DNA from: Candidatus Binatia bacterium
GTDB lineage: Bacteria; Desulfobacterota; Binatia; Bin18
Length of the DNA stretch: 64,000 nucleotides
Direction of reading: 5' to 3'
Assembly: GCA_951812575.1 (NCBI GenBank)
Contig: OX638322.1
Coordinates: 1,173,925 to 1,237,924 of the forward strand
The position numbers and the translations under genes were made by a program. Numbering within the stretch: the first letter of the stretch is position 1; each line of letters starts with the position of its first letter. This document shows positions 4,460 through 49,150 of the stretch, piece by piece. The notes below the pieces were generated by a model. That model was not told where the DNA came from and did not search any database. It worked only from the letters and a program-made list of their open reading frames with translations.

Positions 4460-6090
4460 CCTTTTAGGTCTCTTGGGTCTGTTGGGTCGATTGGGTCGAT
4501 TGAGTCTTTGGGGTCCGTTGGGTCAAGGCTCAACGAACCCAATGACTCAACGGACTCAACTGACCCAATGGACTCAACTGACCCAATGGACTCAACTGAC
4601 TCCACCGACTTATTATCGGCGGTTTGATGAATCCGCGCCAAGGTGGCTTCTACCGACTTTTCCATCCGGCTGAGGAAGGGCTTGGGGTAGAGACCCATCA
4701 GCAACATCAGGGCGATCAACGGAACGAATATGGCTAGCTCGCGGCGGGACAGGTCGGTCAGCTTGGCGTTCTCCGGCTGCGTCAGCGGTCCGAAAACAAC
4801 CCGCTGATACAGACGCAGCATATAGACGGCACCCAGAACAACGCCGGAAACCGCTATCGCACCGACCAGCGTGTTCGCCTGAAAGGTCCCCAAGAGGATG
4901 AGGAACTCCCCAACAAATCCGTTCAAGCCCGGCAGGCCGATCGAAGACAGCATGGTAATCAGAAAGACCGAGGCAAAGAGCGGCAGTTGTTTCCATAAGC
5001 CGCCATACTCGCTGATAAGCCGCGTATGGCGGCGTTCATATATCACGCCGACCAACAGGAAGAGGGCACCAGTTGACAGGCCATGGCCGAGCATCTGATA
5101 CAGCGCGCCTTCGATCCCCTGTATATTGAACGCAAACAACCCCAGCATGACAAAGCCGAGGTGGCTGACGGACGAGTAGGCGACCAACTTTTTCATATCC
5201 GGCTGCACCAGAGCCACCAGCGCGCCATACACGATACCAACCACTGAGAGCGCCATAATCAGCGGCACCGCAGCATGGGCGGCATCGGGGAAGAGCGGCA
5301 GGGCAAAACGCAGAAAGCCATAGGTGCCCATTTTGAGCAGTACGCCGGCCAGGATGACGGACCCCCCGGTCGGGGCTTCGACGTGCGCGTCCGGCAGCCA
5401 GGTATGAAAGGGGAAGAGCGGAACCTTAATGGCAAAGGAGAGCGCAAACGCGGCGAACAACCACATTTGGGCGTTGACCGGAATCTCAAGGTCGTACAGG
5501 CGCAGCAGGTCAAAAGTGAGCGTGCCGTGTTGAGTATTATGCAGATAGGCGAGATACAGGATGGCCACCAGCATCAGCAGGCTGCCGACCATGGTGTAGA
5601 GCAGAAATTTGAGCGCGGCATAAATGCGCCGTTCGCCACCCCAGACGCCAATCAGGAAGTACATGGGAATCAGCATGACTTCCCAAAAGACATAGAAGAG
5701 AAAGACATCAACCGCGACAAAGGTCCCGATCATGCCGGTTTCCAGGATGAGAAAGAAAAAGAGATACTCCCTGACCCGCTGTTCCACGCTGCTCCAGGTA
5801 GACAGAATCACCAGCGGCGAAAGAAAGGTCGTCAGCAGCACGAGAAACAGGCTGATGCCATCAACGCCAACATAGTATTCGATCCCGAACTCGCTGATCC
5901 AGGCATAGCGCTCAACGAATTGAAACGCGGCGGTCTCGCTATCAAAGCCGGTGAACAGGCCGAGCGAGATGAAGAACGTGAGCAGCGAAGCGCCAAAGGC
6001 GGTTCGACGGACCAACTCCACCGCATTCTTGTTGAGGGCCAACAGGAAGAACGCCGTCAGCAGCGGAATGAAAACAACGAGGCTTACCAC
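4456..6090 (-). CDS. nuoM: NADH-quinone oxidoreductase subunit M with repeat-encoded tail
   Basis: This 544-residue antiporter-like subunit of complex I has typical motifs VFWEVMLIPMYFLIGVWGG, FHTWLPDAHVEAPTGGSV and LVQPDMKKLVAYSSVSHLG. NuoM is normally about 490-510 residues. The last 50 or so residues (from about 495) are low-complexity Ser-Val-Glu and Asp-Pro units encoded by the 9-nt hairpin repeat at 4466-4606, added after the final helix. The tail probably sits on one membrane face as a disordered extension. The start overlaps the nuoL stop by a few bases, and the stop overlaps the nuoN start. Confidence 0.95.
   Translation of the reverse strand: MVSLVVFIPLLTAFFLLALNKNAVELVRRTAFGASLLTFFISLGLFTGFDSETAAFQFVERYAWISEFGIEYYVGVDGISLFLVLLTTFLSPLVILSTWSSVEQRVREYLFFFLILETGMIGTFVAVDVFLFYVFWEVMLIPMYFLIGVWGGERRIYAALKFLLYTMVGSLLMLVAILYLAYLHNTQHGTLTFDLLRLYDLEIPVNAQMWLFAAFALSFAIKVPLFPFHTWLPDAHVEAPTGGSVILAGVLLKMGTYGFLRFALPLFPDAAHAAVPLIMALSVVGIVYGALVALVQPDMKKLVAYSSVSHLGFVMLGLFAFNIQGIEGALYQMLGHGLSTGALFLLVGVIYERRHTRLISEYGGLWKQLPLFASVFLITMLSSIGLPGLNGFVGEFLILLGTFQANTLVGAIAVSGVVLGAVYMLRLYQRVVFGPLTQPENAKLTDLSRRELAIFVPLIALMLLMGLYPKPFLSRMEKSVEATLARIHQTADNKSVESVESIGSVESIGSVESVESLGSLSLDPTDPKDSIDPIDPTDPRDLKG
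4466..4606. repeat. nonamer hairpin repeat, locus 1 (nuoM 3' end)
   Basis: The left arm has tandem 9-nt units of type GGGTCGATT or GAGTCTTTG. The right arm has units of type GACTCAACT or GACCCAATG. The two arms are mutually complementary and meet at GGGTCAAGGCTCAACG, forming a long imperfect hairpin. It is read in nuoM as S-V-E/S-I-G units and then D-P units. Confidence 0.85.
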
Positions 6091-7994
6091 AGATAATACC
6101 CCAGAATAACGATCGCTCCACAGCAGAACGACAGAGCATAGGTCTGGACATTACCGGTTTGCCAGAAACGCAAGACCGAGCCGTTGGCCTGAATCACCTG
6201 GGCCGTGCCGTTGACCAGGCCATCAATAACGACCGTATCCCACACCTTCCACAGCCAGTCCGAGGCGGCCAGCAGAGGCCGGACAATCACCGCTTCGTAC
6301 AGCTCATCAACATAATACTTGTTCAGCAACAATCGATGCAGGCCGGCGAACTGCCGGCTGAGGCGGTCGGCCCCTCCTCTACCAGGGACAAAAGGGGGGT
6401 CTTGCACATACAGCCGATACGCCAGCCCGATACCTCCCAGCCCAAGCAGGGTCGGCAGATATTTCACCAGGAGCGACACATGCGGATGCTCATGGCCGTA
6501 GAGCGGGCTGAGCAGTTCGGGCAGGGTAAAATAGCCCCCGATCACAGACAGGATAGCCAGCACCACCAGGGGCATGGTCATGACTTGGGGCGATTCATGA
6601 ATATGGTGGGCAACCTCGGGATCAGAACGGTTTTCTCCCCAAAACGTGACAAAGAATAAGCGAAACATATAGAAGGCGGTCAGGCCCGCCCCCAGGGTGC
6701 CAATCAGCCACAGCAGGGGAGAACCGTGCGGACTCCCAAAGGCGTGTTCCAGGATGAGATCCTTGCTGAAAAAACCGGACAGTAAGGGAAACCCGGCAAT
6801 GGCCAGACAGCCGATGGCAAACGTCCCATAGGTGGTCGGCATCTTGCTTTTCAGCCCACCCATCTTGCGGATGTCCTGCTCCTCGCTCATACCGTGGATG
6901 ACACTCCCGGCACCGAGGAAGAGGAGAGCCTTGAAGAAGGCGTGGGTCATGACATGAAACACACCCGCGGCATACGCGCCCACACCCAGCCCGAGAAACA
7001 TATAGCCCAGTTGACTGACCGTTGAGTAGGCCAGGACCTTTTTAATATCGGTCTGCACCAGGGCAATCGTGGCGGCAAACAGGGCGGTGACGGCGCCGAC
7101 CACGGCCACCACGGCTAAGGCGGTCTGGGACAGGGAATACAGGAAATGCATCCGCGCGATCAGATAGATGCCGGCCGTGACCATCGTCGCGGCGTGAATG
7201 AGCGCGCTCACCGGCGTGGGGCCGGCCATGGCGTCCGGCAGCCAGACATAGAGCGGGATTTGGGCCGACTTGCCGGCCGCGCCGACAAAGAAGAGCAGGC
7301 AGACCACCGTCACCGTCGTCACGGGCAGCACTGAGGCGTGGGCCGCGATTTCGCTGAACGACAGCGTCCAGACACCGTGGGCCCCCAGGCTCCAGAACAA
7401 CAGAAACAGGCCCAGCAGAAAACCGGCGTCACCAATCCGGTTGACGATAAAGGCCTTTTTCCCGGCACTGGCCTTTTCGTCGTCCGTATACCAAAAGCCG
7501 ATGAGCAAATAGGAACACAGCCCGACGCCTTCCCAACCGACGAAGAGCAGCAGGATATTATCGCCCAGCACCAGCAGCAGCATGGCGGTGGTAAAGAGGT
7601 TGAGATAGGCAAAATAGCGCACCACATCGTCGTCGTGGGCCATATAGCCAACGGAGTAGACGTGGATGAGAAAACCGACCCCGGTGATGACCATGATCAT
7701 GACACCGGACAAGGGATCGACCCGCAGCGCAATATCAACCTGTAGGGCGCCTGAGTAAATCCAGGGGTAGACACTATCGACCAGGGCACCGCCGTCCGGC
7801 AGTTGGACAAAGGCCGCAAACGCAAAGCAAAACGCCAGGAAGACCATACCCGGCGAAACCCAGTTCACGACCTGTCGGCCATAGCGCGGCCCCAAGAAGA
7901 GGTTGAACACCACTCCGAGCAGGGGAAAGAGAACGATATAGCGCAGGTACGAGACCGTCTGGACGGCGACCTCGGCCGCGTGCGGATGTTCCAT
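6084..7994 (-). CDS. nuoL: NADH-quinone oxidoreductase subunit L
   Basis: This is the largest antiporter-like membrane subunit of complex I, 636 residues with the chosen start. It shows VGWEGVGLCSYLLIGFW, DAMAGPTPVSALIHAATM and TDIKKVLAYSTVSQLGYM, the conserved discharge and proton-channel motifs. The C-terminal part carries the long amphipathic helix region and a last membrane helix (about 590-636). The open frame continues upstream to 8069, but that extension is encoded by a GTAGGGGC repeat. I therefore take ATG 7994 (MEHPHAAEV), although its ribosome-binding site is weak. Confidence 0.93.
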   Translation of the reverse strand: MEHPHAAEVAVQTVSYLRYIVLFPLLGVVFNLFLGPRYGRQVVNWVSPGMVFLAFCFAFAAFVQLPDGGALVDSVYPWIYSGALQVDIALRVDPLSGVMIMVITGVGFLIHVYSVGYMAHDDDVVRYFAYLNLFTTAMLLLVLGDNILLLFVGWEGVGLCSYLLIGFWYTDDEKASAGKKAFIVNRIGDAGFLLGLFLLFWSLGAHGVWTLSFSEIAAHASVLPVTTVTVVCLLFFVGAAGKSAQIPLYVWLPDAMAGPTPVSALIHAATMVTAGIYLIARMHFLYSLSQTALAVVAVVGAVTALFAATIALVQTDIKKVLAYSTVSQLGYMFLGLGVGAYAAGVFHVMTHAFFKALLFLGAGSVIHGMSEEQDIRKMGGLKSKMPTTYGTFAIGCLAIAGFPLLSGFFSKDLILEHAFGSPHGSPLLWLIGTLGAGLTAFYMFRLFFVTFWGENRSDPEVAHHIHESPQVMTMPLVVLAILSVIGGYFTLPELLSPLYGHEHPHVSLLVKYLPTLLGLGGIGLAYRLYVQDPPFVPGRGGADRLSRQFAGLHRLLLNKYYVDELYEAVIVRPLLAASDWLWKVWDTVVIDGLVNGTAQVIQANGSVLRFWQTGNVQTYALSFCCGAIVILGYYLW

Positions 7995-8019
7995 CTCTAC
8001 AGCACCAATCCCCGCCGAT

Positions 8020-8084
8020 GTAGGGGCAACCCTCTGTGGTTGCCCGTGATGTCGAATGAGGACAGGCACAGGGGCCTGCCCCTA
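8020..8084. repeat. GTAGGGGC...GCCCCTAC repeat between nuoK and nuoL
   Basis: The ends are GTAGGGGCAAC and CTGCCCCTAC, with an internal copy of the inner arm (GTGGTTGCCC) and a partial second unit (GACAGGCACAGGGGCCTGCC). The repeat fills most of the gap between nuoL and nuoK. Related copies lie at 44211-44240 and 62232-62261. I recall this type of palindrome from many bacterial genomes. Confidence 0.75.
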
Positions 8085-8109
8085 CAACTCGGTAATTGTG
8101 TCATACGCT

Positions 8110-8412
8110 TTACCACCGCATCAGGTTGAGTTCGTCCGCGTTGACCGTTTCTCGGCCACGGAAAACGAGCAGGATGATGGCCAGCCCAACCGCGACCTCT
8201 GCCGCGGCAACCGACATGACAAAGAACACGATAATCTGTCCGTCCATATTGCCGAAATGCCGGGCCAGGGCCACAAAAGACAGGTTGACGGCGTTGAGCA
8301 TGAGTTCAATCGCCATGAAGATAATAATGATATTGCGGCGCAGGAGAACGCCCGTCACGCCGATGGTGAACAGGATGCCGCTCAGAATGAGATGATAGCT
8401 GGTTGGGACCAT
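8110..8412 (-). CDS. nuoK: NADH-quinone oxidoreductase subunit K
   Basis: This 100-residue protein with three membrane helices is the usual NuoK size. The two conserved membrane glutamates are present in [13 protein letters not shown] and [13 protein letters not shown]; both belong to the complex I proton path. The neighbouring gaps on both sides contain hairpin repeats, which separate it from nuoJ and nuoL but keep the strand and order of a canonical nuo operon. Confidence 0.95.
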
Positions 8413-8430
8413 CTGCCGCCCTCAAAGAGT

Positions 8431-8500
8431 ATTGGGTCTATGGGGTTTGTCGGGTGTGTTGCGTCTGTTGGGTCGGACGCAAAGGACTCAACAGACGCAT
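8431..8500. repeat. nonamer hairpin repeat, locus 2 (nuoJ-nuoK gap)
   Basis: GGGTC- and GCGTC-type 9-nt units are followed by GACTCAACAGACGCA, which is the exact complement of TGCGTCTGTTGGGTC just before it. The result is a 15-bp perfect arm with an 8-nt loop. It occupies nearly the whole intergenic gap. Confidence 0.85.
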
Positions 8501-8509
8501 ACATCTACT

Positions 8510-8998
8510 CTATCGTTTTGCCAAGACCACTGCTCCGACCACCGCGACTAAGAGCAGGATGCCGGTGATTTCAAAGGGCAGCAGATACGTGGTGAAGAGC
8601 TGACTGCCCAAGGCTTCGACCGTTCCGAAGTTCTCGGGCAAGCTGCGCTCGGCCTGCTCGGACGAGGAGCGTTGCAGCAGCAGACCCAGTTCCGCCACCA
8701 GGATGACGCCGCCGATAATAGCCGCCCGGCCCAAGCCGCGGCGTGGTGTCGGCTGGGTGTCGCTCTGCAAATTGAGCAGCATAATCACAAATAAAAACAG
8801 GACCATGATCGCCCCGGCGTACACAATGATCTGGAGCGCGGCGACCATATGAGCGTCCAGGAACAGAAAATAGACCGCCAGCAGAAAAAGGGTCAGGACC
8901 AGAAAGAGGGCACTATAGACTGGGCTGGGATGGGCAATCACCATAATCGCGATCACGACCAACGGAATAGCCAAGGCAAAGAAGGTCACGAAATCCAT
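8510..8998 (-). CDS. nuoJ: NADH-quinone oxidoreductase subunit J
   Basis: This is a 162-residue membrane subunit of complex I. The helix IIVYAGAIMVLFLFVIML is the conserved TM3 pi-bulge region that drives conformational coupling in the family. I chose ATG 8998 (MDFVTFFALAIP), 5 bp after the nuoH stop; the longer frame upstream overlaps nuoH. Five hydrophobic helices are visible, as expected. The C-terminus (LLLVAVVGAVVLAKR) ends just before the nonamer repeat. Confidence 0.94.
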   Translation of the reverse strand: MDFVTFFALAIPLVVIAIMVIAHPSPVYSALFLVLTLFLLAVYFLFLDAHMVAALQIIVYAGAIMVLFLFVIMLLNLQSDTQPTPRRGLGRAAIIGGVILVAELGLLLQRSSSEQAERSLPENFGTVEALGSQLFTTYLLPFEITGILLLVAVVGAVVLAKR

Positions 8999-9003
8999 AG
9001 CGT

Positions 9004-10095
9004 CTACTCGAAAAGGAGAATAATCAGCGCGGTCAGCATAACGTTGGCCAGCGCTAGCGGGAGGAGAATTTTCCACCCCAGGCTGATGAGTTGGTCATAG
9101 CGGAAGCGGGGCAGGGTCCAGCGAATCATGATCTGGAGCCAGCAGAAGAAGAGTACCTTCAGCGTAAACGCCCCGACCTGAAGCAAGGTCACGAGGAGTG
9201 AGGGCAGCGCGAGAGTGCCGCCCCACGGAAAATGAAATCCGTCGCGCAGCAGAAACGGGACCTGCCAACCGCCGAAGAAGAGCGTGGTAATCAGCCCGGC
9301 AACGATAATGGCTTCGACAAAGTCGCCCAGCATGAACATGGCCTGCTTGGCGCCGGAGTACTCGGTGAAATAGCCGGATATCAGCTCGGACTCAGCTTCG
9401 GGCAGATCAAACGGAATCCGTTTGCTCTCGGCTATTCCGGCGGCCAAAAAGATCAGAAAGGCCACCGGTTGATAGACAATGCCCCAGGCCGGAATCCAGC
9501 CACCGATCAGCGCGCCTTGGGCGCGCGTAATCTCCTGTAAGTCCAGCGAGCCAAAGGTCAGGACCACGCCGATGAGCGCCAGCCCCAACGGAATTTCGTA
9601 CGAGATCATCTGGGCGGAGCCCCGAATCCCGCCCAAGAGCGCCCAGCGATTATTGGAGGCCCAGCCACCGAGGACAACGCCGTACACGCTGAGTGAGACC
9701 ATCGCCAAGACATACAGAATGCCGATGTTCAGATTGGCGGCCTGAAGCGTAATTTCCCGCCCGCCGATAATCAGCACGTCGCCAAACGGAATCACAATAA
9801 AGGTGACCAATAAGGGTACCAGGCCAATAGCCGGCGCAAGCGTGTGCAGTAGCTTGTCCGCCCCCGGAGGCACAAAGTCTTCTTTAGTAAACAGCTTGAT
9901 GGGGTCAGCCACCAGGGTGTTCACGATGCCAAGATTAAAGGGGAGTTTTCCAAACACAGCGGCTCGATTGGCCCCAATCCGATCTTGCAGAACCGCGCTG
10001 CCTTTGCGCTCTACCCACAGCAGCAGCCCACCGAGATTCAACACCATCAGCACCATCAGCAGGGTCAGGCTAAACGTGATGAGAAAATCTATCAT
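9004..10095 (-). CDS. nuoH: NADH-quinone oxidoreductase subunit H
   Basis: This 363-residue membrane subunit joins the peripheral and membrane arms and lines the quinone chamber. Diagnostic segments are VERKGSAVLQDRIGANRA near residue 30 and RIPFDLPEAESELISGYFTE near residue 225 (acidic loop of the E-channel). In canonical operons nuoG precedes and nuoI follows nuoH. Here nuoE precedes by 14 bp and nuoJ follows by 5 bp, with no room for either missing gene. Confidence 0.95.
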   Translation of the reverse strand: MIDFLITFSLTLLMVLMVLNLGGLLLWVERKGSAVLQDRIGANRAAVFGKLPFNLGIVNTLVADPIKLFTKEDFVPPGADKLLHTLAPAIGLVPLLVTFIVIPFGDVLIIGGREITLQAANLNIGILYVLAMVSLSVYGVVLGGWASNNRWALLGGIRGSAQMISYEIPLGLALIGVVLTFGSLDLQEITRAQGALIGGWIPAWGIVYQPVAFLIFLAAGIAESKRIPFDLPEAESELISGYFTEYSGAKQAMFMLGDFVEAIIVAGLITTLFFGGWQVPFLLRDGFHFPWGGTLALPSLLVTLLQVGAFTLKVLFFCWLQIMIRWTLPRFRYDQLISLGWKILLPLALANVMLTALIILLFE

Positions 10096-10109
10096 ACGGC
10101 GTCTGACGT

Positions 10110-10616
10110 TCAGGCTCCTGGTGTGGAGGCAGATTCGGCCTGCTTTGCCAACTCATCGATCAGGCTGAGCATACTCTCCGGGGTCTGCTTCTCGTGATAG
10201 TCGTCGTTGACCTGGATAACGGGAGCGGTGCCGCACGAACCCAGGCATTCGACCTCGCTCAGTGAAAACACCTTATCGCCAGTGGTCTGACCGACTTTGA
10301 CGCCGAGCCGGTCTTCCAGGCAGCGGACAATTTTTTCAGCGCCGACCAGGGTGCAGGACAGGTTGGTGCAGACCTGTACGTGACACTGCCCCATCGGCTC
10401 CTTGTAGAACATGGTGTAAAAGGTCGCGACACCCTGCACATAGGCCGGGGACAGGTCGAGCAAATCGGCAACATGCTCCATTGCGTCGGGGCTCAGATAA
10501 CCGAACTCGGTCTGCGCCAGCCACAGTGTCGGCAGAATGGCCGCCTGCTTGGTCGGATAGCGCGTCAGCACTTCCTCAAACCGTTTGTGCGTTTCCGCTG
10601 AAAATCGGACAGCCAT
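10110..10616 (-). CDS. nuoE: NADH-quinone oxidoreductase subunit E
   Basis: This is a 168-residue soluble subunit of the NADH-oxidising module. Four cysteines of the thioredoxin-like [2Fe-2S] (N1a) site are visible as VCTNLSC (about 81-87) and ECLGSCGTAP (about 122-131). It normally pairs with NuoF (FMN, NADH site), which is absent from this cluster. The gap to nuoD upstream is filled by a nonamer hairpin repeat. The start ATG 10616 gives the usual N-terminus (FSAETHKRFEEVLTRYP). Confidence 0.93.
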   Translation of the reverse strand: MAVRFSAETHKRFEEVLTRYPTKQAAILPTLWLAQTEFGYLSPDAMEHVADLLDLSPAYVQGVATFYTMFYKEPMGQCHVQVCTNLSCTLVGAEKIVRCLEDRLGVKVGQTTGDKVFSLSEVECLGSCGTAPVIQVNDDYHEKQTPESMLSLIDELAKQAESASTPGA

Positions 10617-10637: not shown

Positions 10638-10699
10638 TGAGTCTGTCGAGTCTATTGAGTCCATGGGGTCTGTTGGGTCAAGACCCCGTAGACCCCGTA
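10638..10699. repeat. nonamer hairpin repeat, locus 3 (nuoD-nuoE gap)
   Basis: Units GAGTCTGTC, GAGTCTATT, GAGTCCATG, GGGTCTGTT and GGGTC are followed by a short complementary arm AAGACCCCGTAGACCCCGT. The right end abuts the nuoD stop codon (TAA, minus strand, 10700-10702). Confidence 0.85.
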
Positions 10700-13233: not shown

Positions 13234-13340
13234 GGTGATAGCTAGGTCCTGCGCAAGGGAAGCCGGGAAATCCGTCAGGTCCGGAAGGAAGCAGCGGTAC
13301 CGGAACTCTCCCTGTGCCGCAGGGTAGCCTAGCTATCACC
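13234..13340 (+). ncRNA. ffs: signal recognition particle RNA, small bacterial type (4.5S)
   Basis: The conserved apical domain CAGGTCCGGAAGGAAGCAGC, with its GGAA tetraloop and Ffh-binding bulges, is present near 13278-13297. It is flanked by GGTCCTGCGC and GCCGCAGGGTAGCC arms. The outer helix extends as GGTGATAGCTA / TAGCTATCACC, which may double as a terminator. It guides Ffh to nascent membrane and secretory proteins. The order SRP RNA-dnaX-ybaB-recR is common in bacteria. Confidence 0.95.
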
Positions 13341-13405: not shown

Positions 13406-15145
<1,740 letters not shown>

Positions 15146-15488: not shown

Positions 15489-15541
15489 AAGAGGAAACGT
15501 GTCCAGCCTTTGCATGTCTGTTGGAGGACACGCTTCCTCTT
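15489..15541. repeat. 55-bp palindromic element, copy 1 (ybaB-recR gap)
   Basis: The arms AAGAGGAAACGTGTCC and GGACACGCTTCCTCTT pair with a single G-T or mismatch position. The asymmetric core contains AGCCTTTGCAT and CTGTTGGA. It begins right after the ybaB stop. Confidence 0.85.
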
Positions 15542-15566
15542 GAGAGCATTGACGATGAGGGATGTA

Positions 15567-15621
15567 AAAGAGTAAACGTATCCAGCATCTGCATCTTTAT
15601 TGGAGGACACGTTTACTCTTT
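15567..15621. repeat. 55-bp palindromic element, copy 2 (immediately before recR)
   Basis: The arms AAAGAGTAAACGTATCC and GGACACGTTTACTCTTT form the hairpin; the core is AGCATCTGCATCTTTATT. It ends at the base before the recR ATG. Its internal GGAGGA (15602-15607) is the only Shine-Dalgarno-like sequence upstream of recR, at an unusually long 14-nt spacing. Confidence 0.87.
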
Positions 15622-16221
15622 ATGACGACGCTGACCCCCGCCCTGGCGCGCCTGGTCCAAGAGTTGGGGAGACTGCCGGGAATTGGAGAGAAAACCGCGA
15701 CGCGCTTGGCCATGTTCATCCTGGGCGCGGGGCGGGACTATGTCGAAAGTCTGGCCGAGTCCATCTGGGCGGTGAAGACCGAGACCACCCTATGCCAGGA
15801 ATGCTTTGGGCTGGCTGAGGGCGAGCGATGTGCTATTTGTCGCGACCCGCAGCGGAGTGCCGAGTCGATCTGCATCGTCGAAGAACCGGCCGACCTGATG
15901 GCCGTCGAGCGGGCGCACGAATATACGGGTCGCTATCATGTCCTGCACGGCGTTTTATCCCCCCTCGATGGTATTGGGCCGGATGAACTCAAGATTGCTC
16001 CCCTCCTGGACCGCCTGCGCTCCGGTACGGTGAAAGAGGTCATTATTGCGACCAACCCCAATGTCGAAGGCGAGGCCACCGCGTTGTATTTGGCCAAGGT
16101 CATCAAGCCGCTGGGCGTCCAGGTGAGCCGGATTGCCCATGGCATTCCGATGGGCGGCGATGTGGAATACACCGACGCGGTCACCCTCGGCCGGGCGATT
16201 GAGGGCCGGCGAGAGATGTAA
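15622..16221 (+). CDS. recR: recombination mediator protein RecR
   Basis: This 199-residue protein has the full RecR architecture. A helix-hairpin-helix (RLPGIGEKTATRLA, about 16-30) comes first, then a four-cysteine zinc motif (CQECFGLAEGERCAIC, about 58-73), then a Toprim domain from about 80 (SICIVEEPADLMAVE) ending GAVTLGRAIEGRRE-like. It acts with RecO and RecF to load RecA on gapped DNA. The 3' 428 bp and the 59 bp after the stop are duplicated at 17737-18223. The 5' end abuts a palindromic element that may provide its ribosome-binding site. Confidence 0.95.
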   Translation: MTTLTPALARLVQELGRLPGIGEKTATRLAMFILGAGRDYVESLAESIWAVKTETTLCQECFGLAEGERCAICRDPQRSAESICIVEEPADLMAVERAHEYTGRYHVLHGVLSPLDGIGPDELKIAPLLDRLRSGTVKEVIIATNPNVEGEATALYLAKVIKPLGVQVSRIAHGIPMGGDVEYTDAVTLGRAIEGRREM

Positions 16222-16280
16222 TCCCACCTTTACTCTTATTTTTTCCTTTGCTAAAACTGCGCTGGCAATAATACTGCCTG
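15794..16280 (+). repeat. 487-bp direct repeat, copy A (recR 3' part and flank)
   Basis: This aligns without gaps to 17737-18223 at a fixed offset of 1943 bp. By my count, positions 15794-16170 differ at about 28 sites, mostly third codon positions. Positions 16171-16280 are identical to 18114-18223. The repeat encloses 1456 bp of unrelated cargo (16281-17736). Confidence 0.9.
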
Positions 16281-17736: not shown

Positions 17737-18164
17737 GCCAGGAATGTTTTGGGCTGGCCGAGGGCGATCAGTGTGCCATTTGTCGCGACCCGCAACGGAG
17801 TGCCGAGTCGATCTGCATCGTCGAAGAACCGGCCGACCTGATGGCCGTCGAACGCTCGCACGAATATACGGGTCGCTATCATGTCCTGCACGGCGTTTTA
17901 TCCCCACTTGACGGCATTGGGCCGGATGAACTCAAAATTGCCCCCCTCCTGGACCGCCTGCGCTCCGGTACGGTGCAAGAGGTCATTATTGCGACCAACC
18001 CCAATGTCGAAGGAGAAGCGACCGCATTGTATCTGGCCAAGGTCATTAAGCCACTGGGCGTCCAGGTGAGTCGGATTGCCCACGGCATTCCGATGGGCGG
18101 CGATGTGGAGTATACCGACGCGGTCACCCTCGGCCGGGCGATTGAGGGCCGGCGAGAGATGTAA
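17737..18164 (+). pseudogene. recR 3' fragment (second copy)
   Basis: This encodes the RecR C-terminal 142 residues, from the middle of the zinc motif through the Toprim domain to the stop. It lacks the HhH domain and the first zinc cysteine. Compared with the intact gene it has about 28 base changes but only about four amino-acid changes (ER to DQ, A to S, K to Q). That implies the fragment diverged in a functional recR of a relative before arriving here. A start at 17841 is possible but would give only the Toprim part. Confidence 0.9.
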
Positions 18165-18223
18165 TCCCACCTTTACTCTTATTTTTTCCTTTGCTAAAAC
18201 TGCGCTGGCAATAATACTGCCTG
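17737..18223 (+). repeat. 487-bp direct repeat, copy B
   Basis: This is the partner of 15794-16280. The terminal 110 bp are identical and the upstream 377 bp are about 92-93% identical by eye. The right end stops 7 bp before tRNA-Asn. Confidence 0.9.
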
Positions 18224-27852: not shown

Positions 27853-27977
27853 AAGAGTCTGTTGAGTCTCGGCAGCCCCAAAGGACCCAATGACCCCAAG
27901 GACCCAAATGACCCCAAGGACCCAATGACCCAAAGGACCCAAATGACCCCAAGGACCCAAATGACCCCAAGGACCCA
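27853..27977. repeat. nonamer hairpin repeat, locus 5 (tldD-tldE gap)
   Basis: A short left arm (AGAGTCTGTTGAGTCT) is followed by about a dozen right-arm units (AAGGACCCA, AATGACCCC). Arms are very unequal, so only the first part can fold back. The last AAGGA lies 10 bp before the tldE ATG and could be its ribosome-binding site. Confidence 0.85.
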
Positions 27978-37012: not shown

Positions 37013-37015
37013 ACG

Positions 37016-37131
37016 GGTCCTTTGGGTCTTTGGAGTCTTTTGGGTCTTTTGGGTCTTTTGGGTCTTTTGGGTCTTTTGGGTCAAGACTCAACGGACACAC
37101 TGACTCAACCGACCCAATAGACTCAACTAAG
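37016..37131. repeat. nonamer hairpin repeat, locus 6 (upstream of FG-GAP gene)
   Basis: Left arm: GGGTCTTTG then repeated GGGTCTTTT units. Right arm: GACTCAACG, GACTCAACC, GACCCAATA, GACTCAACT. Arms meet at GGGTCAAGACTC. It sits within 20 bp of the FG-GAP start. Confidence 0.88.
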
Positions 37132-38658: not shown

Positions 38659-41600
38659 TCAGGTCTGCCAGGGCCGAATGTAGCGTTGATATACTTTTGG
38701 CAGTTCCGTGGGAAGGGATGTCACGTCTTCGAGGACCATATAGCGGGAGGGCGCGCACATGTCCCGCAGATAATCATGCCCGGCCTTATCGATGGTCAGA
38801 CAGAAGGTCAGCACGCCGGCCTGGTCGGCCTCGCGCAGCGCCATCATGGTGTCCTGAATGCCGTAGGTGGCTGAGCGCCGGTCAGTGCCATAGTCCATGT
38901 CCTGGGGAAAGCCGTCGCTGAGCAGGACCAGGAGCTTGACCCGACAGGCGATGTCTTTGAGCTTTTCCAGGGAATGGCGGATGGCCGGGCCCATCCGGGT
39001 CGAACGCTTGGGTTCAATCGCGCCGATCCGGCCCTTAATGGTCGGAGAGAGAGACTCGGTGAAGGATTTGACGTGATAGAACTCGACATTGTCACGGCCC
39101 TGACCGGAAAAGCCATAGACCGCATAGGCATCACCGATCTCCTCCAGCGCTTCCGCCATCAAAACCAGGGCTTCTTTGGTGACATCGATAATGCGACGGG
39201 GCTTGGGCTGCGGCGCCCCAGGTTTTTTCTTCCACGCGGCCAGCCAATCGTCGTCAGGATCATCCTGAGCATCCCGAGCATCCTGATCCACCACCGGTTC
39301 GTCGGTTGAGGCACTCATATCCAGCAGAAACAGGGCCGCAACATCCCGCTCGGTCTGGCGTTTGGTGGTATAGACCTTGGGCGAGGGCGCAAGCCGCGCC
39401 CGACGGTCGCTGACTGCGGTAATCACCGCATTCAGATCAAACTCCTCGCCGTCCTCAAGCCCGCGCACGAGTCGATACTGCTCGGGACGGATACGTTGAA
39501 ACTCGGCCTTGATGGCTGGGGTGAGGGCGACATAATCGCCCAGGGTCTTGGCAAAAAACTCACCCGCATCGCCGCTGAGCATAATTTCACGCAGCCGACA
39601 CCAGCGCGCCCGATAATCGGCAATATGATAATCCCACTCGTCATAGAAAAAGGTCAAGGCTTCCTGCCGTTCTCTGCGGCGCCCGGTACTCACCAGCGTG
39701 CCATTCTCGGGTAAGCGGGCGTCCGGGTCGGAGTGGGCCGGCAGCTTGCCGTCCAGGTCCGTAATATATAAGCCCTGCGGGTTCAGGCTGTCCGGCTTGC
39801 CCTGGCGGATGTTGAGTTCTACTCCGGCCTCAAGCAGGGCTTTGAGCTCTTCCGGGGAAAGGGGCGCGCCGCCGGTATCGTCATCTTCCTCGGGCTCTAA
39901 TGTCAACTGAGGTAATTCCGGCATATCTTCCGCCGGCGGCGGACTGTCATCGGTCATGTCCGGGTCAATGAGCGCATCGCCGGTCATTTTTTCAAACAGC
40001 GCCGCTTCGAACGAGGCCGGGTCCTGATCCTGGCGTTGTACCATCACCAGCGAGGACAGAATGCGCTGATACGTATCGGCTGCCCGCCGGGCCGAATCAT
40101 ACACCGTGTCAGACGGCTGCGAGGGGAGCGACAAGGTAGAAAAGAGGGCTCGCAAGGTTTCGGGCAGGAGCGAGGGCAGGGATACGGCGTTCAGCCAGTC
40201 GAGGTCCGACCGCAACCCGCGGTAGGACTGCCCGATCCGGTGGGTCACGCGCCGCGTTTCCACGAGCAGAAAAAGGGCTTCGACCACATGGGGGTGGGGG
40301 AAACAGGCAAAGAAAGCGCCCAGACCGCCGGTGGGTGGACCTGAGTCCTTGGGGTCTATGGGGTCCTTAGAGTCTATGGGGTCCTTGGGGTCTTGGGGTT
40401 GCCGTGACTCAATCGACCCTCCGAGCTGGCGGACTTCCTCTGAGAGCTGTGGCCACAAGCGTTCCAGACGAAAGTCGTAGGTGCCAAACTCGCGCCGGCC
40501 GGCCTGCAGCATGGCCAGGGCGCGAAAGAGTCTGAAATTCTCCTCATATGTTGGAAAAAGGTCGATTCGAGCCGGCAATGGAATGGCGTCTCCGGGAAGG
40601 GGACCAGAGGGGCCCGGGGGACCCGTCCCCCACGAAACAGCTTCGAGCGCCGGCGGATAAGAGAAGAATTCCTGGCGCTCGATACCGGCCGCCCAGCCGG
40701 ACAACATCTGGATATACTTACGCAGCACTTCCTGGACTTCTTCCAGATTGACTCCGGTGTCGTCGTGTCGCAGGACGCGCAGGCTGGTCCGCGATTCCAG
40801 CGCAAAAAATGTTACCCCCGCTTCCGGGCGGGTGCGCCCGATGTCGCGTCCCGTGGCGATCCATTCCAGCAAACGCTGCTCGCCGGCTTCCTCATAGGCT
40901 CGGGGTAAGGTCCGGATGGCCGGAGGAATGCCGGGCGCGAAATCCTGGGCCAGGGCGACCAATGCCTTACGCAGTGCCGGACGCTGGACGCTCTCAATCG
41001 CGTTGAGGCAAGGGGCCATGAGAGGAAAGAGCGAGAGTAGAGCCTCAGGGTCGGAGCGGATCACCGGTGCCAGGATGGCCAGCAAAAAAGTCCGGAGAGC
41101 GGGTGGCAACCCGGTCAGCACAGCCGAGAGTTGCGCAAAGATGGCTTCGGCCGCGGCGGGCGAATGGTTGGCCGCAGCCTGACAGTCCACTAATAATTGG
41201 AGGCGGATCTTTTCGGTCAGCTCGGCAAAGCCGCTGGGCAGTGTCGTGTAAAACGTCCAGGGGCCGGAATCCTGGACGAGCACGCCTAAGACGGCCCACT
41301 CCCGCATTTCTGCCGGGCTCAGAACGGGCAGGGCGAGCGGGGCGGCGGAGAAATAGGAGAGCGCCAGAAACTCGCCCTTCCAGCCCTTTTTCCTGAGCAA
41401 CGTACTGCCGTGCCTTGCCCAGGCGTGCAGGCGCTCTGTGAGCGGAGCCGGCAGGTCCGGCAGCAACGGAGCCGAGGTCTGTAAGAATTGCGCGCCCAGG
41501 CGGCGCGAAACCTGAAGGACTTCGCAACCGACTGCGACCCACGCCTCGACCTGATCCCAGCCGAGCCGGGCCAGCGCGTCGGGAGGAATGGAAAAATACG

Positions 41601-41883
41601 CTACGGCCCCTTCACGCGAGGTCGGCTCGTGCCGGACAAATTGTTCACCAACCTGCACCCAGTGCGCAAACCGGTCCTCCCCAAACGCCTGCCAGGCGGC
41701 CGGGGCGTTGCGACAGAACACCTGGGCCAGGGTGAGCGAGCTGTCCGCCAGCCGATCACCAGCCGCGAGCAGGGTCTCCCGGGCCGGGGCCGGCAGGGCA
41801 TCGAGTTCGGCCAACAAGGCTTGGCCGCGCGGCCCACCGAGCAAATGCCGGGTATCAAACCACAGGTTGCGAACGGATGACAT
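38659..41883 (-). CDS. large VWA-domain protein, NorD/CbbO-like
   Basis: It is 1074 residues. The first 430 or so are helical, possibly HEAT-like. A middle region follows with [19 protein letters not shown]. The last 200 or so form a VWA domain with MIDAS DMSAST and [20 protein letters not shown], ending [18 protein letters not shown] as in NorD/CbbO proteins. Those work with a MoxR-type AAA ATPase (NorQ/CbbQ) to insert metal into enzymes. No such ATPase is adjacent. Residues about 490-514 are a D-P-K linker from a nonamer repeat, and a GGGGGACGGGTCCCCC palindrome encodes part of the segment near 420. Confidence 0.82.
40341..40417. repeat. nonamer hairpin repeat, locus 7 (inside VWA gene)
   Basis: Units GAGTCCTTG, GGGTCTATG, GGGTCCTTA, GAGTCTATG, GGGTCCTTG, then a short right arm (GACTCAATCGACCC). 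Read on the minus strand as repeated D-P-K / D-S-K / D-P-I. Confidence 0.85.
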
Positions 41884-41953: not shown

Positions 41954-41958
41954 TAATT

Positions 41959-44198: not shown

Positions 44199-44210
44199 AC
44201 CCTCCGAAAT

Positions 44211-44240
44211 GTAGGGGCACCCCCCTGTGGTTGCCCCTAC
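44211..44240. repeat. GTAGGGGC...GCCCCTAC repeat between moeA and purE
   Basis: This is a near-perfect 30-bp palindrome (GTAGGGGCACC / GGTTGCCCCTAC). Its right end, CTAC, provides the purE stop codon (TAG, minus strand, 44237-44239). Confidence 0.8.
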
Positions 44241-44743
44241 AGCCCACCGGCCTTGACGCGCTCCTGTAAACGTCGGTCTTTGTCTCGCGTCTTTTCAACC
44301 AGTTCGGCTTTGAAGGCCTGAAACCGTTCTAGCAGACCGGCACTACTGGTTGCCAGTATTTGAACGGCCAGCAGGCCGGCGTTGCGGGCGCCATCAATGG
44401 CGACGGTCGCTACCGGCACGCCGGCCGGCATCTGGACAATCGACAGGAGTGAGTCTTGTCCGTTTAGGGCCGCGCTTTTGATTGGTACCCCGATAACCGG
44501 CAGGGGGGTATGGCCGGCAACGACCCCGGCCAGATGGGCCGCTCCCCCGGCCCCGGCAATAATGACCTTGAGGCCCCGCTCAACCGCCTGACTCGCGTAG
44601 TCGGTGGCATCGTGCGGTGTCCGGTGGGCGGACAGGACGCGGATTTCATACCCAACCTCAAACTCCTCACAGACTTTGGCCGCTTGTTTCATCGTCTCGA
44701 GGTCTGAATCGCTACCCATAACAATACCGATCTGGGGGGTCAT
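44237..44743 (-). CDS. purE: 5-(carboxyamino)imidazole ribonucleotide mutase
   Basis: It is 168 residues. [28 protein letters not shown] and [18 protein letters not shown] are class I PurE signatures; His in SAHR and Ser in MGSDSD are active-site residues. It catalyses the carboxylation step of purine synthesis. The usual partner purK is not present. The stop codon is supplied by the GTAGGGGC repeat. It lies 2 bp after the murF stop on the same strand. Confidence 0.95.
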
Positions 44744-44745
44744 GC

Positions 44746-46158
44746 TTACTCCTTTCCATTCCGCTCAACGAGCGCTTCCAATATCTGCTCCAGATGCACA
44801 CCGCGAGAGCCTTTGACCAACATGAGTTGCGGCCCGTCAACCTGCCGCACCAGCGCATGGACACACGGGGCGGCGGCTGTTGCATCGGGGAAGACGTGGG
44901 CCGGGAGCCCGGCCTGAACCGCGGCCTCGGCAAGCTGCGGGGCGTACTGACCAACCGTCACCAGAGCGTCCGGGACGGGTTTGAGCCCGGCGACATAGGC
45001 CCCGATCTCCCGGTGCCGCAACTCGCCGACCACTCCCAATTCGAGCATATCGCCCAAGACGAGGATCAACCGCTCGCCAGCATTCCGAATCGTGTTGGCG
45101 GTCTGGAGCGCGTGCTGCATGGAGGCTGGATTCGCATTATAGCAGTCGTCCAGCCCGGTCAGTTGATAGGCCGGCACACTGAACGGGGTGAGACGGCGGG
45201 GGGCACCCTGGGCGGTCCGCAGCGTTGCGCAGGCCGTCTCAAGGTCCAAACCGTTCTCCAGCACTGCGGCAATAGTCGCGAGGGCCGCGGGGACGCAGTG
45301 GGAACCGATGAGCGGCAGTTGTACCTGTCGGCACTGTCCCAGGGCGTGCAGCTCAAAACTCGTCCCCGTCCGTGACATCTGAATCTGCGCGGCCCGCACC
45401 TGATTGGCGGGCTGTTCGCCAAAGGTGACAATCCGGCACCGGGCCTGGCGCTGGACGGCGGCCAGCAGCATAGGGTCGTCGCCATTGATAATGACCACCC
45501 CGTCAGGCGGCAGGGCAGCGAGCAGCTCGATTTCGGCTGCCAGCACTCCGGCCAGGTCGCCGAGCGTCTCGGTGTGTTCTTCGCTAATGGTGGTAATGAC
45601 ACCAATATGGGGCTGGGCGAAACGGCCCAGCGCGGTGAGTTCTCCGGGGCCGCTCGTTCCCATTTCCAGAACCAGAAAGTCGTCCTCCGGCGCGGCGCGT
45701 AGCAGAGTCAGCGGCAGGCCGATGTGATTATTCAGATTCCCCTGGGTCGCCCAGGTGGGTCGTTGGGCGATAAAGACCTGGGCCATCAGCTCTTTGGTCG
45801 TTGTTTTGCCGTTGCTGCCGGCAATGCCAATCACCCGTGCGGCAAGCCGCTGGCGGTGCCAGGTGGCGAGGTCTTGGAGCGCGGTCAGCGGGTCGGAGAC
45901 TTCGATACCGGTAGCCCCGTCGGGTTGTCCGACCGGGAAAGACGGCGAAAAAAGAAAGCCGGCCGCTCCGCCCTCCACCGCAGCCGAGATATAGCGATGG
46001 CCATTGACCCGCTCCCCGGCGAGCGGAACGAACAGCGCCTGGGGTACGATATGGCGCGAATCAATGCTGACCGAGGTAAAGAGTGTGTCCGGGCGACCCC
46101 ACCTGAGCGTGCCTCCGGTGGCGGTGCAAATGTCGTGCGCGCGCAGTGAAACTCCCAC
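44746..46158 (-). CDS. murF: UDP-MurNAc-tripeptide--D-Ala-D-Ala ligase
   Basis: It is 470 residues. [19 protein letters not shown] (P-loop), [32 protein letters not shown] and [15 protein letters not shown] are standard MurF segments. It adds the D-Ala-D-Ala dipeptide in cytoplasmic peptidoglycan precursor synthesis. No other mur or fts genes flank it, so it is outside a classical dcw cluster here. It is divergent from the CCA-transferase gene. Confidence 0.95.
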
Positions 46159-46274
46159 AATAGGCCAACTCTATCGAGGCGGCCTGGGCGTCGCAAGCGC
46201 ACAGGTGCGGAGCGTTTCTCCGGGAGACGGTGTGCTCCGTTGCTCTCCTGGGCGCGGCGTGTCACCATGCGCGT

Positions 46275-47597
46275 ATGAGCCAGCGGATCGATCAGGCCAG
46301 GACGATTGTGCAGATGCTGCACCGACATGGCCATACGGCTTATTTTGCCGGTGGCTGTGTGCGGGATCGCCTCCTTGGCATTCCGGCCAAAGACTTCGAT
46401 ATCACCACGGATGCCCGGACCGTCGAGATCCGGAAGATATTTTCGCAGACGATCCCGGTCGGGGCGCAGTTCGGCGTTATCCTCGTTGTCCTGGAGGGTG
46501 TTCCCTATGAGGTGGCAACGTTTCGGGCGGATGGGGCCTATCATGATGGCCGTCACCCGGTAGCGGTCCGCTTCAGCACGGCCCGGGAGGACGCGCTGAG
46601 ACGCGATTTCACGATTAACGGCATGTTCTTTGACCCGCTGACGGACACGGTTATCGATTATGTGGACGGGCAGGCAGACCTGCACAACCGGATCATTCGG
46701 GCCATTGGGAAGCCGACGGCGCGTTTTCACGAGGACCGCATACGCCTGCTGCGAGCCGTCCGCTTTGCCGCCCGGCTGGGCTTCGCTATTGAGCCCGAGA
46801 CCTGGCGGGCCGTGGGCCAGTTCGCTCCGACGCTGACCGACATGGCCTGGGAGCGGATCGGCGACGAGATAGTGAAACTCCTGACCGAGGGCGGCGCCCA
46901 CTCGGGGATGAAGCTGTTGGCGGAGTCGGGCCTGCTGGCGGCCGTGCTGCCCGAGGTTCTGGCGCTACGCGGGGTGGCACAGTCACCCGATTTTCATCCC
47001 GAGGGCGATGTATTTATTCACACGCTGTTAGTTCTGCACCATCTCGACACCCTGGAGCAGCCGAGCGAGAGCTTGGCCCTGGGCGCGCTGCTCCACGATA
47101 TCGCCAAACCCCACTGCCAGCAGCGAGCCGGAGAGCGCATCACCTTTCACGGTCACTGCGAGTCCGGCGCGGAGATGGCGGTCGATATCTGTCAGCGTCT
47201 GAAACGCGCGCGCGCGACTTGGGAGCGGGTGGCCTTCCTGGTCAAAAACCACCTGCGTCTGCTCGACGCGCCCCGCATGCGAGCGGCAACGCTCAAACGC
47301 TTTCTCCGCCTCGACGGTATTGAAGAGCTGCTGGAGCTCGCCCGTCTGGACGCCCTGGCGTCGCACGGCAATCTTGAGGCGTATACCTTCTGCCGTCAAA
47401 AACTGCTCGCGCTCGGCCCCGCGGAGTTGCGCCCGCCCCGGTTGCTGAGCGGACGGGACTTGATCCAGCTCGGATTTCAGCCCGGCCCGCAGTTCTCCAG
47501 CATCCTGAGGGCGCTGGAGGAAGCCCAACTCGAAGGCCGGGTGCGCACCCGGCAGGCTGCGCTCTCCTGGGTGCACCAGAACTGGCAGCAGCCCTAA
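46275..47597 (+). CDS. CCA tRNA nucleotidyltransferase / poly(A) polymerase family protein
   Basis: It is 440 residues from ATG 46275 (MSQRIDQARTIVQML). Class II nucleotidyltransferase motifs: FAGGCVRDRLLGI with the acidic pair in KDFDITTDAR, RRDFTINGMFFD, and EDRIRLLRAVRFAARLGF. An HD-type phosphohydrolase segment follows (ALGALLHDIAKPHCQQ). It adds or repairs the tRNA 3' CCA. The exact start is uncertain because no clear ribosome-binding site precedes it. The 3' end overlaps the convergent phoR gene by 4 bp. Confidence 0.9.
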   Translation: MSQRIDQARTIVQMLHRHGHTAYFAGGCVRDRLLGIPAKDFDITTDARTVEIRKIFSQTIPVGAQFGVILVVLEGVPYEVATFRADGAYHDGRHPVAVRFSTAREDALRRDFTINGMFFDPLTDTVIDYVDGQADLHNRIIRAIGKPTARFHEDRIRLLRAVRFAARLGFAIEPETWRAVGQFAPTLTDMAWERIGDEIVKLLTEGGAHSGMKLLAESGLLAAVLPEVLALRGVAQSPDFHPEGDVFIHTLLVLHHLDTLEQPSESLALGALLHDIAKPHCQQRAGERITFHGHCESGAEMAVDICQRLKRARATWERVAFLVKNHLRLLDAPRMRAATLKRFLRLDGIEELLELARLDALASHGNLEAYTFCRQKLLALGPAELRPPRLLSGRDLIQLGFQPGPQFSSILRALEEAQLEGRVRTRQAALSWVHQNWQQP

Positions 47598-49150
47598 GAA
47601 GTCTGAGGAGTGTACTCCGACGCAGGGGACGTAAGCGGCAGGGCGACCCGGACTGTGGTTCCGTGATTGACCCTGCTCTCGATCTGGAGTGCGCCGTTAT
47701 GGGCCATCACAATATGTTTGACAATGGCCAGCCCCAAACCTGTTCCCCCCAACTCGCGGGAACGGGCTTTATCCACCCGGTAAAAACGCTGGGTCAGGCG
47801 CGGGATATCGGCTTCCGGGATGCCACAGCCGGTATCGGCTATGGCAATCTCCAGCCAGTCCTGGCTGCCGTTGCCTGTAACATCAAGGACAGGTTTTGTG
47901 TCAGTTGGGTCTCTTGGGTCCTTGGGGTCCTTTGACTCAACAGACTCAACAGACTCAACAGACTCAACAGACTCAACAGACTCAGCAGCAGGGTGCAGTA
48001 CCGCGCTGACCGTGACCCGACCCTGAGCGGGCGTATATTTGACCGCGTTGTCAATCAGGTTGATCAGGACCTGGTGCAGGCGGTCCCGATCTCCTCTCAC
48101 GGTTGGGAGGGCGGGCGGAAGATGCTGAGAGAGGGTGACCTGCCCCCGCTGGGCTTTCTCCTGTAGCATATCAAACGCTTCCTGGACGAGTTCAGGAATA
48201 TGGAGTTCCTTCCGATGGAGCTCGGCCTGCCCCAATTCCAGGTTGGATAAGGTCAACAAGTCGTCTATGAGGCGGCTAAGGCGTTCCGAGTGCCGGTCAA
48301 TAATCGTAAGGAAGCGGGTCGCGTGCTCGGGATCGTGGAGGGCACCCGTGAGCAGGGTTTCCGCATAGCCCTTGATCGCGGTGAGCGGGGTCCGAAGTTC
48401 GTGCGACACATTGGCCACAAAGTCTGCCCGGATGGATTCGAGCTGTTTGATTGGGGTCAAATCGTGACAGCTTAACACATATCCGCTGGCTGGTGGGCGG
48501 CTTCCCTGAGGCCCTCCATACTCTCCGCTGTGGGGCAGGCGCAAGACGCTCACGGCGAGTTGTCGTGGCTCCCGGCCCTCGACTTCGATTTCCTGGGTGA
48601 CTCCCTCAGCCGATTCGGCGGACAAAAGCTGGTGCAGGACAGGGTGGCGGGAAAATTCCTGAAAGGGCCGCCCCTGCCAGTCTTCCGTTGGGTCCAGGCC
48701 AAACAAGTGCAGAGCGGCCGGGTTCCAGCGCACGATGTTGCCATGCGGATCAAGCACGACAATGCCTTCAGCCATGCTGTGGAGCAGGGCTTCGAGTTCT
48801 TTCTTTTCGTCTTGGAGCTGCTGAAGGTGTCGGCCTTGCGTCGTAAGGAGTCGGGAGAGCCGGTACTCGATGGTGCCCAGCACGTCGTTTTTGCGGACAG
48901 GCAGCGCGGGGAGCAGGGCTCGGCTCGGGGTCACGGAAAGAAAAGCGCTGAGCGCGTTCAAACGTTGCCGCAACTGTGTCCGCTGACGCAGGGCAGTGCC
49001 CAGCGCGGCAATGCCACAGATAAGGGCTGCATACCAGACCCACTGCGGACGTGCGTCCGCGGGAAGGGACAAAAGGAGATAGAGCAGGAGCAGGGCCAGC
49101 AGAGCGAGACCGACCGGAAACAGCACGGCAAAGGTAATATTGTCTCTCAC
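47594..49150 (-). CDS. phoR: phosphate-regulon sensor histidine kinase with repeat insertion in the ATPase domain
   Basis: It is 518 residues, with two N-terminal helices (about 8-55), a PAS domain (SMAEGIVVLDPHGNIVRWNP), H-box SHELRTPLTAIKGYAETLL, N-box DNAVKYTP, G1 DTGCGIP and G2 GTGLGLAIVKH. Residues about 387-417 (S-V-E units then K-D-P units) come from a nonamer repeat and lie between the N-box strand and the G1 strand, inside the catalytic domain. It should phosphorylate PhoB under phosphate limitation. It is the last gene of the Pho cluster. Confidence 0.93.
   Translation of the reverse strand: MRDNITFAVLFPVGLALLALLLLYLLLSLPADARPQWVWYAALICGIAALGTALRQRTQLRQRLNALSAFLSVTPSRALLPALPVRKNDVLGTIEYRLSRLLTTQGRHLQQLQDEKKELEALLHSMAEGIVVLDPHGNIVRWNPAALHLFGLDPTEDWQGRPFQEFSRHPVLHQLLSAESAEGVTQEIEVEGREPRQLAVSVLRLPHSGEYGGPQGSRPPASGYVLSCHDLTPIKQLESIRADFVANVSHELRTPLTAIKGYAETLLTGALHDPEHATRFLTIIDRHSERLSRLIDDLLTLSNLELGQAELHRKELHIPELVQEAFDMLQEKAQRGQVTLSQHLPPALPTVRGDRDRLHQVLINLIDNAVKYTPAQGRVTVSAVLHPAAESVESVESVESVESVESKDPKDPRDPTDTKPVLDVTGNGSQDWLEIAIADTGCGIPEADIPRLTQRFYRVDKARSRELGGTGLGLAIVKHIVMAHNGALQIESRVNHGTTVRVALPLTSPASEYTPQTS
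47899..47992. repeat. nonamer hairpin repeat, locus 8 (inside phoR)
   Basis: Left arm: GGGTCTCTT, GGGTCCTTG, GGGTCCTTT. Right arm: five GACTCAACA units and GACTCAGCA. In phoR it is read as E-S-V repeated, then K-D-P / R-D-P. Confidence 0.9.

Follow-up and report, generated by a model that had tools for sequence, protein, structure and literature searches.

Repetitive extragenic palindromes (REPs) are small palindromes, present in many copies per genome and mostly located close to 3' ends, between genes that run in the same direction or converge; some intragenic copies, several of them in replication and repair genes, are translated in frame (PMC3733652). In the GTAG and CGTC super-families, REPs are palindromes of 20-40 bp that carry an unpaired GTAG or CGTC at one of their ends. 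The BOX elements of Streptococcus pneumoniae are modular, with a variable number of tandem boxB modules and a predicted RNA hairpin, and occur clustered with repeats of other families or inserted in them (PMC3049150). The boxA and boxC ends of BOX are distinct from boxB, and BOX makes target duplications. Palindromic repeats translated in frame are described both for the Rickettsia palindromic elements (RPEs), which lie within ordinary genes (PMC3733652), and for PARCELs, which are tandem, have dyad symmetry, spread horizontally and encode a 25-residue amphipathic motif (PMC2996958). The TAACTGA repeats of marine Beggiatoaceae are short tandem heptamers in intergenic regions, mostly just upstream of start codons, with a punctate phylogeny; nearly all are direct, and one indirect case is reported (PMC4679880). 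Intervening sequences (IVSs) of 23S rRNA carry an S23/IVP-family gene between complementary ends, and their mobility has been proposed (PMC4990558). IVSs are inserted into a helix of the 23S rRNA and are excised by RNase III. Here we analyzed a 64,000-nucleotide stretch of a Candidatus Binatia bacterium (the window; positions 1,173,925-1,237,924 of a one-contig genome of 5,178,102 bases), in which arrays of a 9-nt unit form hairpin arms: GRGTCNNTT in the left arm and its complement, AANNGACYC, in the right arm. Judged by NuoL, the closest named relatives of the genome are Desulfurellaceae bacterium bin18 and Candidatus Binatota bacterium CO36406bin_18, so that the host probably falls within the Binatota group; such bins come from sponges.

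On balance, we lean towards regarding the arrays as a small interspersed hairpin family whose arms are runs of 9-base units, with slippage changing arm length, passive spread, and retention where the transcribed hairpin does little harm. They are REP-like in their placement in co-directional and convergent gaps near 3' ends and in their in-frame intragenic copies, and BOX-like in their modular growth by variable tandem units and their nesting with other repeats. Unlike REPs, however, they are variable runs of units, no GTAG or CGTC tag was seen at the array ends read, and two-armed loci mostly exceed 40 bp. In GTAG-type REPs the gene for the REP-associated tyrosine transposase (RAYT) is flanked by the repeat, whereas the only Y1 transposase of this genome has no array beside it but lies with other repeats; a RAYT-driven REP was thus not supported. 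In contrast to BOX, each of the two arms is built from the repeated unit; target duplications were not established, and no fixed end modules of BOX type were found in the flanks of 39 left and 43 right array ends. The array unit encodes three residues rather than the 25 of PARCEL, and most array loci are intergenic; TAACTGA repeats, in the account cited, lack complementary arms. Searches of the open-access literature (exact strings and topics) and of Rfam (four sources: the window, the genome stretch L199, and the viral contigs L240 and L243) found no named family. At the gathering score, Rfam reported only an SRP RNA and two tRNAs, all in the window, and a known RNA family was therefore rejected for these four sources. 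Since REP tag, RAYT and BOX end modules were not found and no name was encountered, we regard the array form as new within the known class of hairpin repeats; we file it beside REP and BOX as a form with arms of 9-nt units.

Array structure and occurrence

The initial annotation had listed eight inverted arrays in the window, all of which were confirmed by Tandem Repeats Finder and direct reading (Table 1). Seven of the eight were reported by the program; the array at 8431-8500 is degenerate, falls below the 4-unit threshold of our array finder and is not among its calls, and was recognized by eye and in the orthologue alignment. Many further copies exist, as had been anticipated: the three-unit pattern GRGTCNNTTGRGTCNNTTGRGTC has 184 matches in the 5.18 Mb genome, and the reversed pattern used as control has none. 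The alternatives of few other copies or of assembly errors therefore failed, as arrays also recur in separately assembled genomes of the genus. In a 1.244 Mb sample (59 stretches plus the window), the array finder returned 16 rows. Three of these, from one unrelated repeat-rich protein gene at 446-448.5 kb, were dropped, leaving 13 loci, seven of them inside the window. Control runs gave one row on reversed sequence and none with a scrambled motif. A DPN-type repeat tract that resembles the array motif was judged unrelated; it is very long and lies in a protein of 1886 aa that also contains a phage baseplate hub domain (PF05954; L136 8355-14015, minus strand).

Stretches fetched around pattern matches, together with the genome sample, yielded 47 parsed loci, a lower bound on the total; two further candidates lie at 427278 (below threshold) and 5172397 (stretch not fetched). 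Inverted arms were seen at 36 of the 47 loci, the GRGTC arm invariably preceding the GACYC arm. The remaining loci were scored as one-armed, four with GRGTC only (one of them truncated by the stretch end) and seven with GACYC only. No parsed locus had the swapped order (0/47), and the two-armed array-type loci read in relatives, in the distant genomes G008 and G063 and in viral contigs follow the same GRGTC-first order. Although either order would be palindromic, only one is used, which points to a common seed or an apex constraint; a common seed hairpin could be the source of the single order. The apex varies in length and sequence between loci. At L197 2067-3179, a GACYC-only and a GRGTC-only array lie in reversed order about 1 kb apart around a 2-hydroxyacid dehydrogenase gene, with inverted copies of another repeat outside them.

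The units adjoin one another without unique spacers, so that a CRISPR was rejected, in agreement with the initial annotation. Three of its other statements had to be corrected, that on arm complementarity being treated below. A strict period of 9 does not hold: of 322 unit steps in the genome's own arrays, 300 are 9 nt, 20 are 8 and two are 10, and in the examined relatives and phage contigs 264 of 319 are 9 and 53 are 8. Nor are the loci spread, since 33 of 47 have a neighbor within 20 kb (5000 draws from a uniform null gave a mean of 14 and never more than 32), and the first 1.5 Mb of the chromosome holds 33 of the 47. The window is therefore an unusually dense stretch.

Outside this genome, the three-unit pattern was found in all six other genus genomes (4 to 113 matches) and in two of 91 more distant relatives, G008 and G063. 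The two-armed pattern, with 50 matches per strand in the own genome, was found in none of 246 other genomes across the phylum, a draw that contained no other genus member.

Alleles, growth of the arms and dispersal

Alleles were compared at orthologous sites in seven genus genomes, G000-G006, of which G000 is the own genome (Table 1).

Table 1. Arrays and the second repeat family in the window, with the alleles found at orthologous sites of the arrays
Feature	Position	Context	Alleles in G000-G006
Array 1	4466..4606	Two-armed; translated as C-terminal tail of a NuoM-like protein, ORF 4456-6090, minus strand	Site 4466: array-like sequence in 7/7, degenerate in G005
Array 2	8431..8500	Degenerate; between nuo genes, within AAAGAGTA...TACTCT, the ends of a 55-bp palindrome	Site 8431: array in G000, G001, G002, G004; empty in G003, G005; 55-bp palindrome in G006
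Array 3	10638..10699	Gap between two co-directional nuo genes	Site 10638: array in G000, G001, G002, G004; other sequence in G003, G005, G006
Array 4	14611..14727	In frame within dnaX (ORF 13406-15145, plus strand), residues ~402-439, after domain III	Site 14611: array in 5/6 genomes with data; absent in G006; G004 without data
Array 5	27853..27977	Between two co-directional PmbA/TldD-like genes	Site 27853: array in G000, G003, G005 (3/5); 55-bp palindrome in G002, G006; G001, G004 without data
Array 6	37015..37131	Gap separating FtsJ-like and FG-GAP genes, both on the minus strand	Site 37016: array in G000-G004 (5/7); one common, different, array-free sequence in G005 and G006
Array 7	40341..40419	In frame within ORF 38659-41883, minus strand, no Pfam match	Site 40341: array only in G000, G004 (2/7)
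Array 8	47899..47992	In frame within a PAS/HisKA/HATPase kinase, ORF 47594-49150, minus strand	Site 47899: array in G000, G001, G004 (3/7)
55-bp palindromic repeat	15491..15545	Further copies start near 15570, 25296, 32768, 53212, 55702	

The proposal that arrays are products of replication slippage was supported by three observations. Within an arm, adjacent units share their NN bases in 75/152 cases, compared to 14% by chance, while between arms NN identity lies below the shuffled-locus mean, so that the two arms of one locus do not share NN; units alike within but not between arms are what separate slippage in each arm would give. Orthologous arrays differ in unit number. Finally, a segment of at least 4 kb is present in two copies that are 98.5% identical and carry arrays of 16 and 14 GACYC units, respectively. 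The two copies (L192 and L211, at 66.4-70.5 kb and 5120.4-5124.5 kb) lie near the two contig ends, and the pair could reflect the assembly of two strains; one member of the array pair 68395/5122380 was excluded from the counts of unit sharing, arm pairing, unit steps and codon phase. The arms thus likely lengthen and shorten through replication slippage. Selection for the reading frame was rejected as an explanation of unit spacing, as steps of 9 account for 93/99 in intragenic and 207/223 in other arrays (p 0.81).

Complementarity of the arms, in turn, is partial. The GRGTC and TT positions pair and the motif is inverted, as had been claimed, but the two N positions are mostly unpaired. Between arms they pair at 0.376 versus 0.486 in shuffled loci of the own genome (0.15% of 2000 shuffles were as low, and 0.05% of 4000 in a repeat test); the deficit is weaker in the relatives and phage set, where 14% of shuffles were as low. 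Full arm-arm complementarity as a selected feature was therefore rejected for the own genome. The deficit may come from descent from an asymmetric seed or from avoidance of perfect palindromes.

Presence/absence polymorphism was seen among orthologues at seven of the eight window loci. An additional array occurs in G004 at the site equivalent to window 8006-8122, which is filled in this genome only, and at site 913703 G001 shows a clean absence with the ribosome-binding site retained. At window 8006-8122, in the gap beside a NuoL-like gene, another palindrome (TGTAGGGGCAACC...) is found in the own genome, G001, G002, G003 and G006; G005 has neither. A tree of 7,083 aligned columns from three of four segments (the first, missing from G002, was dropped) pairs G003 with G005 and G002 with G006. 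The patterns of array presence are not simply tree-like and hence imply loss, recombination or repeated gain.

Arrays were also found in phage sequences. Four IMG/VR contigs (L239, L240, L243 and L310) carry nine arrays, and two of the four are tail operons of tailed phages. In these two, the arrays occupy gaps between genes, and the adjacent genes have matches to the tail tube, the tape measure and further tail families of phages. Seven of the nine arrays start within 20 nt of the called end of the upstream gene, including one that runs 18 nt into it. Megablast of L243 against the phage collection gave no match, and a protein-to-locus search with a tail gene of L240 returned only the query locus; for an L243 gene, four distant relatives were obtained, which carry no arrays. 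In 61 of the 65 viral-contig stretches that matched the two-armed pattern, the match was due to a fixed two-unit family (the GGGTCATTT type and near variants), which was set aside as different; only L239, L240, L243 and L310 are of the array type. A fixed hairpin distinct from the arrays, GGGTCATTTGGGTCA...TGACCCAAATGACCC, occurs in 55 of the 65 stretches (for example L252, L257 and L260); it is widespread in GC-rich viral contigs, occasionally as adjacent copies.

Polymorphism at orthologous sites and occurrence in phage tail operons show a family that is dispersed and variable, but no enzyme, target-site duplication or observed transposition speaks for the active self-propagation that had been suggested. 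Copies likely spread among sites and strains as passive elements, through recombination and perhaps phage. It has also to be considered that arrays arise at each locus from chance palindromes via slippage, with no dispersal. The signs of slippage and the variable length and sequence of the apex fit such an origin, but convergence would hardly give many loci a single unit consensus and arm order, leave the family nearly absent outside the genus, and place the same 9-base unit in phage contigs. We consider this already disfavored view very improbable; slippage growth of a dispersed hairpin is the most likely mechanism.

Several observations nevertheless weigh against the reading as a slippage-grown, passively dispersed family. 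Few array-free alleles are simply empty; in most cases, the array stands in place of another sequence segment. No target-site duplication was established at the orthologous sites, among which clean empty ones are few; site 8431 in G003 and G005 is compatible with a duplication of at most 2 nt, and the other sites are replacements. The sisters G003 and G005 differ at site 37016, where G005 shares its array-free sequence with the distant G006, and because of this conflict one has to invoke recombination or repeated change. The arrays have no linked RAYT gene, as the array finder detected no array in the 3.2-kb locus of the single PF01797 match in the genome. The clustering along the chromosome is without explanation in this reading, and the surplus of unpaired N positions between arms might reflect selection acting on structure. 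The PF01797 gene itself (L191 1420-2598, minus strand), a Y1 transposase that looks REP-associated, lies beside repeats translating as MAALPGE/MPALPGE.

Placement in operons and reading frames

Placement was assigned with a simple codon-usage gene caller. Of the 47 arrays, 22 are in co-directional gaps, six in convergent gaps and one in a divergent gap, 14 are intragenic and four overlap a gene end. Hence, only one of 29 intergenic arrays falls outside co-directional and convergent gaps, while 57 of the 225 kb of intergenic sequence in the sample are divergent. As called, 20 of the 22 co-directional arrays start within 50 nt of the upstream stop; the other two are the IVP locus described below, whose gene was missed by the caller, and an array overlapping the end of its gene. 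RNA folds were predicted for the plus strand with 40 shuffles each. Two-armed arrays had z below -2 in 29/36 cases (mean -4.2). One-armed arrays, with means of -0.3 (GRGTC only) and +1.2 (GACYC only), had no stable fold.

These results raise the possibility that the arrays are selected RNA elements, that is, transcribed operon-internal hairpins setting mRNA stability, processing or partial termination in host and phage. The predicted folds and the proximity to upstream stops speak for this, as do the presence of arrays in compact phage operons and the observation that single junctions (8431, 27853 and 8006-8122) hold different palindromes in different species. However, arrays are often missing in relatives despite kept gene order, seven of 36 two-armed arrays fold no better than z -2, including the one at 27853 (z +2.0, not stable), 14 of 47 arrays are intragenic, and palindromes at shared sites may merely mark tolerant places. 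We therefore regard such a selected role as possible though not probable. Under the reading of passive spread, arrays would be retained wherever the transcribed hairpin harms little, which is tolerance of placement rather than a selected function. Intrinsic terminators consist of a G+C-rich hairpin and a U run behind it. The flank profiles showed no T-run column at right array ends and no end tag or column shared by the 36-nt flanks of the 39 left and 43 right ends. An AGGTC...GACCT end unit suspected by eye was rejected, as the profiles contained no strong shared column beyond the decaying unit.

Inside called genes, 83/86 GRGTC units and 57/71 GACYC units are in codon-start phase; counted by array, this is the majority phase in 16/16 GRGTC arms and 12/17 GACYC arms. 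Translated units read (G/E)S(V/I) from the GRGTC arm and D(P/S)(K/T) from the GACYC arm. Codon inspection revealed that stops are impossible in the used phase of both arms. A second stop-free phase exists in the GRGTC arm; it is leucine-rich and hardly used. Intragenic sites include the position after DnaX domain III, an EF-Tu-like/APS-kinase junction and an aminotransferase/Mur-ligase junction; arrays also flank, on both sides, a stretch between RNase H-like and AAA domains. Because nine bases correspond to three codons and the used phase is free of stops, arrays within reading frames persist as hydrophilic linkers or tails.

An array-flanked IVP gene and other repeats

The single PF05635 (23S_rRNA_IVP) match of the genome (E 2.4e-31; 903282-903908, L199 1983-2609) is flanked by two arrays of 10 units each, GRGTC on one side and GACYC on the other. 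The locus is upstream of a glmS-like gene, between it and a glmU-like gene (names assigned by eye). The same array-IVP-array arrangement is found in G001, G002 and G004. G005 has a short GRGTC/GACTC remnant of both arms without the gene, and G003 and G006 have GACYC units and no GRGTC arm, in G003 next to another palindrome. The locus resembles an IVS in having a hairpin with an IVP-family gene between its arms, but it lies between protein genes and not in a 23S rRNA helix, its arms are 9-nt arrays, and it is one locus.

The arrays could be the non-autonomous versions of a mobile hairpin element that, when complete, has a protein gene at the apex, like the IVSs that encode S23/IVP. The position of the only PF05635 match between the two arrays, the arrangement common to G001, G002 and G004 and the gene-free remnant in G005 agree with this. 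Against it stand the single locus and the alleles of G003 and G006, which suggest that the IVP gene may have entered beside an existing array; moreover, a mobilizing role of IVP is put forward as a hypothesis in PMC4990558, as far as that account goes. We hold this explanation to be unlikely and treat the locus as a lead, not proof, to a protein-coding form. An extended version is likewise doubtful: a hairpin element traveling with phage, its full form bearing the IVP gene at the apex of two 9-base-unit arms and its short forms deleted for the apex, would, thanks to one stop-free phase, build flexible linkers where copies lie in or across genes and could fuse neighbors into multidomain proteins.

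A second family, the 55-bp palindrome (AAAGAGTAAACGTGTCC...GGACACGTTTACTCTTT; 30 copies in the 1.244 Mb sample, none in the reversed control), shares gene junctions with the arrays. An approximate search found no leftover ends of this palindrome beside arrays at the 47 loci, and the two families overlap only at 8431, which is outside the 47, and among the alleles of 27853. Elsewhere in the window, a bacterial small SRP RNA is located between a tRNA-Ser gene and dnaX (13240-13337), and the 3' part of recR (15794-16280) is repeated downstream at 17737-18223 with 94% identity.

REP-type hairpins are common, yet one can rarely see the units that build their arms, the steps of their growth or their conversion to protein linkers. 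In the seven related genomes compared here, the same junctions are found filled with an array, empty, or occupied by something else. As unit number changes mostly in three-codon steps, slippage growth, spread and domestication as linkers can be traced site by site, and a route from one genome to another is offered by phages with arrays in their tail operons. Two unexplained kinds of element would be linked if the IVP locus were the full-length form.

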